NCBI GenBank assembly: GCA_020629175.1
Contig: JAHDDU010000009.1
Span: 1 to 64,000, forward strand
Length of the DNA: 64,000 bases
From: Flavimaricola sp.
Lineage (GTDB): Bacteria > Pseudomonadota > Alphaproteobacteria > Rhodobacterales > Rhodobacteraceae
Reading direction: 5' to 3'
Program-made: the position numbers and the translations under genes
Notes under the pieces: model-generated
The model's database searches: none
What the model was told of the DNA's origin: nothing
What the model saw: only the letters and a program-made list of their open reading frames with translations
In this document: in pieces, positions 3,301-61,606 of the stretch
Layout of the letters: each line of letters opens with the position of its first letter
Numbering within the stretch: position 1 is the stretch's first letter

Positions 3301-3909
3301 TTATTCTAGTGTGACACCAGGTGGTGTCAGCCATTTGCCGTTTTGGTCACAGCCCATGAAGTCGGCAAATATTGCGCAAATTGTGCCTTGTGTGTCGGTC
3401 AATGTGAAGACCGGATATCCTCCGTCGCCCCATCCTGCATGCACATAAGGCACGGGTGTCCCATCTGGAAGAAGAACGATTTTTCTCTCGCCGCCGTTTG
3501 GGTCGTCGAATTTACAGAAGAATTTATTGTAAGGGTCCTGTCCGGGCTTCAACGATGCAGCAAAGGCCTTGAGCCCAGCGAAGGTCGTCGGGGTGAAGAC
3601 GCTGGCCAGCCCAGTGCTTACAAGACAGGTACCGACATCGGCACCCGAAGCAATGGCGTTGTCGTTGAAGATCAAGACCAGTTTGGAATTACGGCCTTGG
3701 TCTTCGTCATGCAGCACAACTAACCTGCTGCTTTTCTTTGGAACATCCACAAAGTTTGGGGAAGGCGGGTGGGCCAGTGGGTCTAGAAACACGACCTTGC
3801 CCTCTGGCGTAGGGAACTCACCGCAATCCGTGATCGTTAGGCGCGCTTGGGTATTGGAGACGATCCAGTCAAGCGCGGATTGAGAGGATGAATTTCGTGT
3901 GTCAGACAT
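3301..3909 (-). CDS. DUF4241-like protein of unknown function
   Basis: 202 residues, no signal peptide and no membrane segment. The C-terminal half (HAGWGDGGYPVFTLTD ... ICAIFADFMG) resembles DUF4241 proteins, which carry a GWGDG.YP motif and end in a short V/I-x-DF strand. No catalytic residues can be assigned. Its ATG overlaps the stop of the DUF2927 gene (ATGA) and it ends 17 bases before the SPFH start, so it is co-transcribed in the telA/xpaC run. The family call rests on the C-terminal motif only. Confidence 0.65.
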   Translation of the reverse strand: MSDTRNSSSQSALDWIVSNTQARLTITDCGEFPTPEGKVVFLDPLAHPPSPNFVDVPKKSSRLVVLHDEDQGRNSKLVLIFNDNAIASGADVGTCLVSTGLASVFTPTTFAGLKAFAASLKPGQDPYNKFFCKFDDPNGGERKIVLLPDGTPVPYVHAGWGDGGYPVFTLTDTQGTICAIFADFMGCDQNGKWLTPPGVTLE

Positions 3910-10189: not shown

Positions 10190-12154
10190 ATGAGTTTGCC
10201 ACCGGGTTTCATTGATGAATTGCGCTCGCGCTTGTCCATTGGGCAGGTTGTGGGGCGCAAGGTGATGTGGGACAGCCGCAAATCGAACCCCGGCAAAGGC
10301 GATTTGTGGAGCCCGTGCCCGTTTCATCAGGAAAAAACCGCGTCCTTCCACGTCGATGATCAGAAGGGTTTCTACTATTGCTTTGGCTGTCATGCCAAAG
10401 GCGATGCATTTAAATTTGTGCAAGAAACCGAGAACGTGAGCTTTATGGAAGCCGTGCAAATTCTGGCGAATGAGGCCGGGATGCCGATGCCCGAGCGCGA
10501 TCCGCGCGCACAAGAGAAGGCCGATCATCGCAGCGTACTGGCTGAGGTCATGGAGCAGGCGGTGCAGTGGTACAAGATGCAACTGCGCTCGGCCGGGGCA
10601 GCGGCCGCGCGAGACTATTTGGCGGGGCGCGGGTTTGATGCGGCGGCACTCGAGCGGTGGGAGATTGGCTTTGCCCCCGATCTGCGGCAGGGCGTGTTTC
10701 AGGCGCTGACGGGCAAAGGTGTTCCTGCCGAGCATGTGGTCGAGGCAGGGCTCGCGGCGCGGCCGGATGACGGGGGGCAGCCGTTCGACCGGTTTCGCGG
10801 GCGCATCATCTTCCCCATCCGCGACGCGCGAGGGCGGGCAATTGCACTGGGCGGGCGGGCGATGGACCCGAATGCGCGTGCCAAGTATCTGAATTCGCCG
10901 GAGACGCCGCTCTTTGACAAGGGCCGCTCGCTCTACAACCACAAACCTGCGCGTGAGGCGGCGGGCAAGGGGGCGACGCTCATCGTCTCTGAGGGGTACA
11001 TGGACACGATCGCGCTGGTTGAGGCGGGGTTCCGCTCGACCGTGGCACCGCTGGGCACAGCGATCACCGAAGGGCAGCTGGCGCTAATGTGGCGGATGTC
11101 GCCCGAGCCTGTGATCGCCTTGGATGGGGACAAGGCGGGCCTGCGGGCGGCGATGCGCTTGATTGATCTGGCGCTACCACTTTTGGAAGCCGGTAAGTCG
11201 CTGCGATTTGCATTGATGCCGGAGGGGCTTGATCCGGATGATCTGATCAAAGCGCAGGGTCCCGCGGCAATGCAGGCGGTGATCGATGGCGCTTTGCCAC
11301 TGGTGCAGCTGCTCTGGCGGCGCGAGACGGAGGGCAAAGTGTTCGACAGCCCCGAGCGGAAAGCGGCGCTGGATAAGGTCTTGCGTGATGCGATCAAGGT
11401 GATCCCCGATCCCTCCCTTCGTGCGCATTACGGGCAGGAAATCAAAGATTTGCGCTGGGCCTTGTTCAATCCGCGCAAACCAACAGGTGGCGCGCGTACG
11501 CCTTGGCGCAAAGGCGGACCCGCGCCTTATGGGCAAGCAGCGCAAGTGACGACGAGCTCCAAGAGCAGTGTATTTGCGGCTGGTCCTGACGGTATTGAGG
11601 ACTATCTGCGCGAAGCTGTTATCCTTGCTGTGTTGATTACCCATCCGGGCCACATCGCTGAGTTCGAGCATCAGGTCGAGTTGATGGAATGTCGTGATCC
11701 TGGGCATGGGATGCTCCGCGATGCGGTGTTGCGTCATGCCGGGGCCAATGATCTGCGCGTGGCGATTTCTGAACAATTGGGCGCTGCCCCCCTTGAAAAG
11801 CTTTTCGGGCAGCGCCATGTCGCCATCGTACCTGCAATTCGACGCCCCGGCGAAACAGATGCCGCGCGGATGTGCTTGGTCGAAGAGCTTGCAAAATTGA
11901 ACGCACGTCGGGGTCATGCCCGTGAAGTCCAAGAAGCCATCGAAGATATCCACCACGCAGAAGACGAACGGCTGACCCATCGGTTAAGCGATGGCGTGGC
12001 AGCCCTTGATAAAGCAGGGCGCGGAGACGGCGAGGATCGAACGGAATATGAGACCAGCCATAATGGTGCCAAATTGCGCCGCGATGAACGCTCTGCGTTC
12101 GATGATCTTTTGGGCGGTATCGAGTTCGCCAAGAAGGATCGCCGCGCTAAATGA
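10190..12154 (+). CDS. dnaG: DNA primase
   Basis: 654 residues, close to the family's usual length. The N-terminal zinc-binding domain reads CPFHQEKTASF ... YYCFGC (residues about 43-66). The TOPRIM catalytic core follows, with the glutamate in VSEGYMDTIAL and the aspartates in IALDGDKAG. The C-terminal part is the helicase-binding region. It makes RNA primers at the replication fork together with DnaB. rpoD follows 149 bases later, the common alphaproteobacterial order, without rpsU in front. Confidence 0.96.
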   Translation: MSLPPGFIDELRSRLSIGQVVGRKVMWDSRKSNPGKGDLWSPCPFHQEKTASFHVDDQKGFYYCFGCHAKGDAFKFVQETENVSFMEAVQILANEAGMPMPERDPRAQEKADHRSVLAEVMEQAVQWYKMQLRSAGAAAARDYLAGRGFDAAALERWEIGFAPDLRQGVFQALTGKGVPAEHVVEAGLAARPDDGGQPFDRFRGRIIFPIRDARGRAIALGGRAMDPNARAKYLNSPETPLFDKGRSLYNHKPAREAAGKGATLIVSEGYMDTIALVEAGFRSTVAPLGTAITEGQLALMWRMSPEPVIALDGDKAGLRAAMRLIDLALPLLEAGKSLRFALMPEGLDPDDLIKAQGPAAMQAVIDGALPLVQLLWRRETEGKVFDSPERKAALDKVLRDAIKVIPDPSLRAHYGQEIKDLRWALFNPRKPTGGARTPWRKGGPAPYGQAAQVTTSSKSSVFAAGPDGIEDYLREAVILAVLITHPGHIAEFEHQVELMECRDPGHGMLRDAVLRHAGANDLRVAISEQLGAAPLEKLFGQRHVAIVPAIRRPGETDAARMCLVEELAKLNARRGHAREVQEAIEDIHHAEDERLTHRLSDGVAALDKAGRGDGEDRTEYETSHNGAKLRRDERSAFDDLLGGIEFAKKDRRAK

Positions 12155-12201
12155 CACATTACGGCCCAGCGTTCGCTGTGCAACATGTGAACGAAATAAG
12201 A

Positions 12202-12266
12202 TGATTCGTGGTTGCGAATCACAACCGCTACAGATTGATTCGCGTTAACGCACTGGTGACGAATCA
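12202..12266. promoter_or_regulatory. Cluster of four GANTC (CcrM) sites in the rpoD upstream region
   Basis: Four copies of the heptamer TGATTCG in alternating orientation: TGATTCG at 12202 and 12236, CGAATCA at 12215 and 12260, forming two inverted pairs. Each contains a GANTC site, the target of the alphaproteobacterial cell-cycle methylase CcrM. About 0.25 sites would be expected in this length. They lie 38-102 bases before the rpoD start and so probably in its promoter. Confidence 0.65.
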
Positions 12267-12303
12267 CCCGTTATGACGCCCGACATATCAGGAGCCCGTT
12301 TGA

Positions 12304-14286
12304 ATGGCCGCCAAAGACACTGACGACCGCACCAAAGATCAAGATGCCGACAGCGCGCACTCTCTCGACATGAGCCAAGCCGCCGTCAAGAAGATGATCG
12401 CCGAGGCAAGAGAACGGGGCTACATCACGTATGATCAGTTGAACGCCGTTTTGCCGCCTGATCAGGTGTCGTCGGATCAGATCGAAGATGTGATGTCGAT
12501 GTTGTCCGAGATGGGCATCCAGGTCACCGAAGACGAAGAAAGCGAAGAGGTCGAGGACGACGGCAAGAGCCGCGAGGTCGCCACCGTTGGGGCCCGTGAA
12601 GTGGCACTTGGCGGCGGTGAGACCGAAAAGCTGGACCGGACCGATGATCCGGTGCGCATGTACCTGCGCGAGATGGGCAGCGTCGAGCTTCTCTCCCGAG
12701 AGGGCGAGATTGCGATTGCCAAACGGATCGAGGCCGGCCGCAACACGATGATTTTGGGGCTCTGTGAGAGCCCGCTAACGTTCCAGGCGATCACCATCTG
12801 GCGTGATGAATTGCTGTCAGAAGACATTCTTCTGCGTGACGTGATTGATCTGGAAGCGACTTTCGGCAACCAAATGGGCGAGGACGGTGAGGAAGAGACC
12901 GTTGTTGCTCCTGCAGCCGGCGGTGAGGCGCCTAAGGCGGAGGCGGCGCAAGAGCTGGATGCGGATGGCAACCCTATTCAGGTTGACGATGATGATGACG
13001 AGGACGAGCAGGCGAATATGTCGCTCGCCGCGATGGAGGCCGCACTCAAGCCCCGTGTGCTGGAAACGCTTGAGGTCATCGCCCACGACTTTGCCGAACT
13101 GTCCGAGATGCAGGACGCGCGGATGTCGGCCACGCTGAACGAGGACTCCTCGTTCTCGGACAAGGCGGAGAAGACCTACCAAACCTTGCGCTCGCAAATT
13201 GTGCAGATGGTGGTGTCACTTCATTTGCACAACAACCGGATTGAGGCGCTGATTGACCAGCTTTATGGGATCAACCGGCGGATCATGTCGATTGATAGCA
13301 GCATGGTGAAGCTTGCCGATCAGGCACGCATCAACCGACGCGAGTTCATCGACGAATACCGAGGCCGCGAGCTTGATCCGACGTGGCTTGATGAGATGAG
13401 CCAGAAGTCTGGCCGTGGCTGGCAGGCGCTGATCGAGCGATCCTCTGGCAAGATTGAGGATTTGCGAGCCGACATGGCGCAGGTGGGCCAGTACGTTGGC
13501 GTTGATATCAACGAATTCCGCCGCATCGTGCAGCAGGTTCAGAAGGGTGAAAAAGAAGCCCGTCAGGCCAAGAAAGAAATGGTCGAGGCGAACCTGCGCC
13601 TCGTGATTTCGATTGCCAAAAAGTACACGAACCGTGGCCTGCAATTCCTTGATCTTATTCAGGAAGGCAACATCGGCCTGATGAAGGCGGTTGATAAGTT
13701 TGAATACCGCCGCGGCTATAAATTCTCGACCTATGCGACGTGGTGGATCCGGCAGGCTATCACCCGATCTATTGCCGATCAGGCGCGTACGATCCGTATT
13801 CCGGTACACATGATCGAAACGATCAACAAGCTGGTGCGCACAGGCCGCCAGATGCTGCATGAGATTGGCCGCGAACCGACGCCCGAAGAGCTGGCCGAAA
13901 AGCTGCAAATGCCGCTTGAGAAGGTTCGCAAGGTGATGAAGATTGCCAAAGAGCCGATCAGCCTTGAGACGCCGATTGGCGACGAGGAAGACAGCCAGCT
14001 TGGTGACTTCATCGAGGATAAGAACGCGATCCTGCCGCTCGACTCGGCCATTCAGGAAAACCTGAAAGAGACGACGACCCGGGTCCTGGCAAGCCTGACG
14101 CCGCGCGAAGAGCGGGTGCTGCGTATGCGCTTTGGCATCGGGATGAACACCGACCATACGCTTGAAGAAGTGGGCCAACAGTTCAGCGTGACACGCGAAC
14201 GTATCCGCCAGATTGAGGCGAAAGCGCTGCGCAAGCTCAAGCACCCAAGCCGGTCGCGCAAACTGCGCTCGTTCCTGGATCAGTAG
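12304..14286 (+). CDS. rpoD: RNA polymerase primary sigma factor (sigma-70)
   Basis: 660 residues, the long alphaproteobacterial form. Region 1.1 at the N-terminus; region 1.2 at [19 protein letters not shown]; an acidic non-conserved region (about 190-240, DDDDDEDEQ); region 2 with the -10 recognition helix ([20 protein letters not shown]); region 3 ([14 protein letters not shown]); region 4 with the -35 helix-turn-helix ([20 protein letters not shown]). AGGAG lies ten bases before ATG 12304. It directs housekeeping transcription. The GANTC cluster upstream suggests cell-cycle input. Confidence 0.97.
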
Positions 14287-60732: not shown

Positions 60733-61144
60733 TGGGTCGCTCCTAAACATTTGTTGATCCTGTTGTCCTCAATGCCCGTGGCGCAATCATGTCCTCGCTG
60801 TGAAAGCTGTGTTTGTGACGTAGGGTCGAAAGTCTTATTCCTGCCCCAATGTTTGCAGGGAAGTAGAAATTAATAAATAAAAACAGATAGTTGCTGTCAC
60901 ATCGGTTCAGGTGCAGATTTGGGCGGCAAGGCTCACTTTTATTCAAGTTTGTCCCGGGGATCGACATATGGCAAAGCGTCGATAAGGGCGACTTATGACA
61001 GATTGAAAACAATCATTGTCCTGAACTTGGGAGTGTTGCGGGCTCGCCCAAAATCGAACCGGGTCGGTTTGGATATCTGACCTCAAGATTCGCGCGGGAT
61101 TCGTCCGCATTGCAATTTGTTCACGTATTGTTCATGTTTGCGCT
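60733..61144. other. 412-base non-coding region between the small gene and mmcB
   Basis: Divergent region. It holds an AT-rich tract (60863-60892, AAATTAATAAATAAAAAC), two GATTC (CcrM) sites at 61087 and 61098, and the LexA box at 61119-61133. No ORF with a ribosome-binding site was found; a minus-strand frame at 60743-61012 has none. Confidence 0.5.
61119..61133 (+). promoter_or_regulatory. LexA box (SOS box) for mmcB
   Basis: GTTCACGTATTGTTC, an exact match to the alphaproteobacterial consensus GTTC-N7-GTTC, centred 19 bases before the mmcB start. LexA bound here would block transcription until DNA damage. Confidence 0.88.
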
Positions 61145-61606
61145 ATGTTGACGGATATCTCGCCCCCTGACCTCAAGCCCGGCCAATTGCTCGCCCGCGG
61201 CGTTTGCCGTCATCTCATCAGCCATGATTTCGTGAGTGTCGAAGAGTTGGTGCCAACGAATGGCCTGCGTGTGGATGTCATGGCTGTTGGGCCAAAGGGC
61301 GAGATTTGGGTGATTGAATGCAAGTCCAGCCGCGCAGATTTCCAGTCTGATCACAAGTGGCAGGGCTATCTGGAATGGTGCGACAGATTTTTCTGGGCGG
61401 TCGACGCTGAATTTCCGACGGAGTTATTGCCAGACGAGACGGGGCTCATCATTGCAGACGGGTACGACGCTGAAATTCTGCGCATGGCGCCGGAGGACAA
61501 GCTGCCGCCCGCCCGACGCAAAGTGATGATGCAAAAGTTCGCGCGGCATGCGGCGTTGCGTTGGCATGCCGCACGCGATCCAGGGTTCACTTTTTCCGCG
61601 TACTGA
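61145..61606 (+). CDS. mmcB: MmcB family DNA-repair protein
   Basis: 153 residues. A PD-(D/E)xK nuclease-like core: Asp44 in LRVDVMAVG, and Glu58-x-Lys60 in WVIECKSSRADFQSD. In Caulobacter the SOS-induced mmcB contributes to mitomycin C resistance. The exact LexA box in front supports the same control here. The end overlaps that of the convergent small gene by 20 bases. Confidence 0.9.
   Translation: MLTDISPPDLKPGQLLARGVCRHLISHDFVSVEELVPTNGLRVDVMAVGPKGEIWVIECKSSRADFQSDHKWQGYLEWCDRFFWAVDAEFPTELLPDETGLIIADGYDAEILRMAPEDKLPPARRKVMMQKFARHAALRWHAARDPGFTFSAY

Follow-up and report, generated by a model that had tools for sequence, protein, structure and literature searches.

Four GANTC sites lie between dnaG and rpoD

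In the window, by which we mean the whole 64-kb stretch of DNA that was analysed, the gene for DNA primase is followed by that for the primary sigma factor, and the short gap between the two contains four TGATTCG heptamers in alternating orientation (Table 1). All four lie upstream of rpoD exactly where the first-pass annotation had placed them; each includes a GANTC site of the CcrM type, and each stands in the extended TGATTCG/YGAKTCG context (4/4). The heptamer occurs nowhere else in the 64-kb window. Neighbouring GANTC sites are offset by 13, 21 and 24 bp, and together the four (12203-12265) span the interval from 39 to 101 bp before the rpoD ATG.

Table 1 Features of the dnaG-rpoD region in the window.
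Feature	Position	Strand	Remarks
dnaG (DNA primase), upstream gene	10190..12154	+	DNAG_N, Zn_ribbon_DnaG and Toprim domains
dnaG-rpoD intergenic region	12155..12303	none	149 bp; contains the array
Site 1, TGATTCG	12202..12208	+	GANTC 12203-12207
Site 2, TGATTCG	12215..12221	-	GANTC 12216-12220; 13 bp from site 1
Inferred -10 position	12233..12238	+	GATTGA in the window, degenerate; from anchored alignment of relatives
Site 3, TGATTCG	12236..12242	+	GANTC 12237-12241
Site 4, TGATTCG	12260..12266	-	GANTC 12261-12265; 24 bp downstream of site 3
rpoD, primary sigma factor, presumed target	12304..14286	+	660 aa; sigma-70 regions 1.1 to 4

The initial estimate that about 0.25 such sites would be expected in 65 bp proved too generous. 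GANTC occurs 30 times in the window as against 269 times in dinucleotide shuffles, a roughly ninefold depletion that lowers the expectation to about 0.03 per 65 bp and makes the cluster even less expected than had been supposed. The first-pass annotation had also proposed a genome-wide count; this gave 85 YGATTCG in the complete 3.14-Mb assembly of 85 contigs. A Poisson estimate for the occurrence of four of them in any 65-bp stretch of the genome comes to about 6e-8, which bears out the claim that CcrM-type sites are clustered here beyond chance. The rpoD array is the largest such group in the genome, the others being one triple (contig C38) and two pairs (contigs C40 and C54).

The array recurs across the Rhodobacteraceae

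The annotation had reasoned that a real array should be found in relatives, its absence there counting against it, and we found it retained throughout the core Rhodobacteraceae sampled. In a set of 74 rpoD upstream regions from genomes whose RpoD is at least 76% identical, from which one contig-edge case was excluded, every locus (74/74) has two or more YGAKTCG within a 70-bp stretch upstream of rpoD and 67 of the 74 have three or more. When the letters of these upstream regions were shuffled, a mean of 0.24 loci had an array, with a maximum of 3. Chance origin of the array was rejected by shuffles and Poisson estimates at the level of the window, the genome and the family. The array usually lies 30-100 bp before the rpoD start codon, and at about 150-200 bp in two relatives (L037 and L040).

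GANTC density in these loci reaches 28.6 per kb over the 130 bp that precede rpoD, compared with 1.14 per kb elsewhere in them, and 178 of the 202 upstream GANTC (0.88) stand in the YGAKTCG context, against 0.175 in the background; among the rare upstream sites that are not GATTC, some have the GAGTC form that the K of YGAKTCG permits. In other orders of Alphaproteobacteria, 55 rpoD loci from Rhizobiales, Caulobacterales, Sphingomonadales, acetic-acid bacteria and others have 0-1 YGAKTCG in the 130 bp upstream of the gene. By these comparisons of upstream sequence, the array is a family trait of Rhodobacteraceae.

Many relatives (L010, L013, L038, L042, L045 and others) share an additional CGAATCA that lies within the 3' end of dnaG, 122-125 bp before the array and about 184-197 bp before the rpoD ATG.

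Site spacing is retained while orientation varies

The distances that recur between successive sites across the 74 loci are 21, 13, 14, 8 and 15 bp, of which 8, 13 and 21 bp make up a spacing lattice, with a pair at 13-15 bp in 53 loci and a pair at 20-22 bp in 51. Site orientation, by contrast, varies widely, and in some relatives (for example L024, L025, L027 and L029) all sites point the same way. The description of the four heptamers as two inverted pairs is correct for the window as far as their alternating order goes, but does not hold up as a functional arrangement: fixed orientation would be needed for an RNA hairpin or for the dyad of a repressor, whereas GANTC is itself palindromic and takes its direction from the flanks only. 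That spacing and type of site are kept while orientation changes freely argues against a palindrome-binding repressor, and the suggestion that the heptamer is a repressor half site is likewise not supported, the order of orientations differing widely over the 74 loci.

The same variation bears on the idea that the rpoD leader acts as an attenuator or riboregulator by means of RNA hairpins between inverted heptamers. TGATTCG-N6-CGAATCA is able to pair, and there is a terminator-like match, on the minus strand; against this, the leader folds no better than its shuffles (z -0.75), the heptamer pairing is absent from the minimum-energy structure and an Rfam search of the leader gave no match of note. 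Such hairpins are impossible in the relatives whose sites all share one orientation, which largely refutes this reading and leaves it scarcely credible.

Relatives were aligned on site B, which is defined by its position 21 bp downstream of a further site, A; the counterparts in the window are site 3 for B, which in relatives often has GCTAW before it, and site 2 for A. Anchored in this way, relatives read CGAATC ... GCTAWTGATTCG, with a -10-like TAWTGA overlapping site B in many of them, site A close to the -35/spacer region and a third often 13-15 bp further downstream. A scan of the window returned no consensus sigma-70 promoter and its -10-like element is degenerate, so the exact promoter position is an extrapolation from the alignment of relatives, which would put the -10, with some uncertainty, over site B.

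This register also helps in weighing a role outside transcription, such as a mark of hemimethylated DNA or a repair or replication signal near dnaG. The neighbouring dnaG is indeed a replication gene, and the rest of the window avoids GANTC; the array, however, stands directly before the start of rpoD, keeps a constant register with a -10-like element in many relatives and carries flanks specific to GcrA, and we regard a non-transcriptional role as very improbable.

The sites match the motif of GcrA

The window's genome encodes one GcrA (contig C9, E 8e-49) and one CcrM-type methylase (contig C33) in which an N6_N4_Mtase domain is joined to a RAMA C-terminus, so that both partners of the Caulobacter system are present here. 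The DNA-binding domain of this GcrA is conserved, aligning almost residue for residue with the Caulobacter GcrA chains 5yiu and 7ye1, and its sigma-interacting domain is recognisable.

In Caulobacter, the extended motif of the methylated sites at which GcrA activates is given as TGATTCG, or more broadly YGAKTCK or YGAKTCG (PMC7987155). Its definition comes from Caulobacter and not from Rhodobacteraceae, and in Brevundimonas the genes activated by GcrA showed no preference for it (PMC7987155). GcrA associates with sigma-70 polymerase, which it recruits to m6A promoters, and speeds open-complex formation there (PMC7403470). The array shares with the GcrA/CcrM sigma-70 promoters of Caulobacter crescentus (ctrA P1, mipZ and others) both the GANTC in the promoter region and the TGATTCG/YGAKTCG context.

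The array could instead be a platform for some other transcription factor, perhaps a repressor, whose site contains GATTCG by coincidence and for which methylation would be incidental. The heptamer extends beyond GANTC and is highly specific, as such a factor would lead one to expect. Yet the motif exactly equals the published GcrA one, including the few variants with G at K, and sites occur in either orientation and in variable combinations, unlike a fixed dyad. The motif match, with its few GAGTC variants, is the strongest reason for naming GcrA over another factor.

Array and CcrM tend to be absent together

We surveyed 345 genomes of the family, of completeness at least about 95%, for CcrM, and 10 had no RAMA match. 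One apparent case, G282, was set aside as its ccrM is present in part, split off on a contig. GcrA was present in every CcrM-less genome checked. Of 52 genomes with CcrM, 48 have the array, as do 2 of the 8 in which CcrM was not detected (Fisher p 1e-4), these eight being the ones with a readable rpoD upstream region and six of them having 0-1 sites; the association is, however, confounded with phylogeny, as the CcrM-less lineages are long, fast-evolving branches and yield only five independent phylogenetic pairs, with which a sign test is unable to reach significance.

Individual lineages are informative. Three CcrM-less genomes, the pair L033/L158 and L163, nest within the array-bearing clade of the rpoD tree but have 0-1 sites each, which suggests that their array was lost along with CcrM. 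In L161/L164, absence of the array again goes with absence of CcrM. There are exceptions on both sides: L154 and L159 retain three sites where CcrM was not detected, possibly owing to an assembly gap in L154, and the array is absent from four CcrM-positive, mostly basal genomes (L160, L167, L168 and L169). With so few pairs and these four array-less genomes, we count the association as support only, and the pattern of CcrM loss lends moderate support to a methylation-dependent role.

The three sites of L154 and L159 would also suit a factor other than GcrA, to which methylation is immaterial. Such a factor would not, however, readily explain why absence of the array tracks that of CcrM in L033/L158, L163 and L161/L164 although GcrA stays, and we judge it unlikely.

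Seven Rhodobacteraceae genomes (G016, G031, G371, G084, G124, G201 and G213) keep gcrA, have no detectable RAMA-type CcrM and tend to have a fast-evolving RpoD, which suggests that CcrM was lost more than once.

A probable GcrA-dependent promoter of rpoD

We propose, with a probability of about 0.7, that the array is a CcrM-methylated promoter of rpoD activated by GcrA with sigma-70, where methylation, GcrA binding, activation and timing are what we infer from the sequences. CcrM would methylate the adenines of the GANTC sites; GcrA, carried on RNA polymerase through sigma-70 domain 2, would read the methylated sites and help the polymerase to open an rpoD promoter whose core elements are weak; and rpoD would then be transcribed by the GcrA-sigma-70 holoenzyme. 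Because the product of rpoD is sigma-70, the partner of GcrA, a positive loop would be closed, and because replication hemimethylates the sites, output from rpoD may respond to passage of the fork. This arrangement suggests a link between the supply of sigma-70 and DNA methylation, and perhaps replication as well. The broader proposition, that rpoD is a main conserved target of CcrM and GcrA in Rhodobacteraceae and that a self-reinforcing loop couples global transcription capacity to chromosome replication, we advance tentatively, at rather less than even odds.

GcrA might also act negatively, holding or blocking polymerase at a fully methylated rpoD promoter that would fire only in the hemimethylated window after replication. 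At fully methylated Caulobacter ctrA P1, GcrA covers the region from -35 to beyond +1, and interference with polymerase has been proposed (PMC3667746); expression reaches its minimum in mid-cycle in one of the cell-cycle groups, whose GANTC lies outside the -10/-35 spacer (PMC4287350); and the presumed -10 is upstream of site 4 and of the sites that correspond to it. It is unlikely, however, that a housekeeping sigma gene, being essential, would be off for most of the cycle, and the GcrA effects documented at YGAKTCG are described as activation (PMC7987155). Negative action thus seems to us decidedly improbable.

Activation of rpoD by GcrA at methylated sites would extend a kind of promoter that is already known. 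Arrays before rpoD have three to five sites with recurring 13-15/21-bp spacings; in Caulobacter, of the 96 cell-cycle start sites with GANTC, only 11 have two or more within 50 bp (PMC4287350). Also similar are the multi-GANTC ctrA promoters of Caulobacterales and Sphingomonadales, where up to five or six GANTC precede a core regulator gene and are conserved within the order, as here (PMC8116508). The target differs from those of Caulobacter in being rpoD itself, and the Caulobacter relatives sampled (L098 and L100) have no array upstream of that gene. Among the ctrA promoters of Rhodobacterales, GANTC occurs in only 45% (PMC8116508), whereas the rpoD array is present in every core member sampled.

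On the strength of that low ctrA GANTC count and of the location of ctrA near the terminus, changes in methylation have been held to lack a major regulatory role in Rhodobacterales (PMC8116508). The rpoD array is a candidate for a conserved exception to this view; if its proposed role is correct, methylation control matters in an order where it was thought unimportant for gene expression. In the papers searched, we found no description of rpoD as a target, of the form of the array or of its family-wide conservation, and the combination of the three may be new; earlier notice could lie in subscription papers. The array points to a methylation-controlled promoter of the housekeeping sigma factor across a large and ecologically important bacterial family, and is a place to ask whether GcrA, a cofactor of sigma-70, controls the gene of its own partner.

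Other groups of GANTC sites

The leader of Caulobacter ccrM carries GANTC sites and is associated with autoregulation. Upstream of its own ccrM, the window's genome likewise has three GANTC in about 40 bp (TGATTCA, CGAATCG and TGACTCA; L035 about 622-665, contig C33 about 3841-3884), although just one of the three has the YGAKTCG context, unlike the rpoD array. Their presence suggests that ccrM may itself be under methylation control in this genome.

The second-largest group in the genome consists of three TGATTCG-type sites, 7 and 22 bp apart, at C38:27056-27091 (L135:2557-2592), upstream of a gene for a LysM-domain protein with a similar LysM gene nearby. At C54:22366-22396 (L134 about 1567-1597), GGAATCA, CGAATCA and CGAATCG are spaced 8 and 14 bp, like the rpoD arrays, at the start of a gene for an sCache-domain histidine kinase that is divergent from one for a DctP-family solute-binding protein. 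The pair on contig C40 lies within an IclR-type coding sequence and looks like chance. Within the window, two GATTCG 11 bp apart adjoin a LexA-like direct repeat, GTTC-N7-GTTC, at 61087-61160, just upstream of a 153-aa open reading frame at 61145 whose product we take to resemble MmcB.
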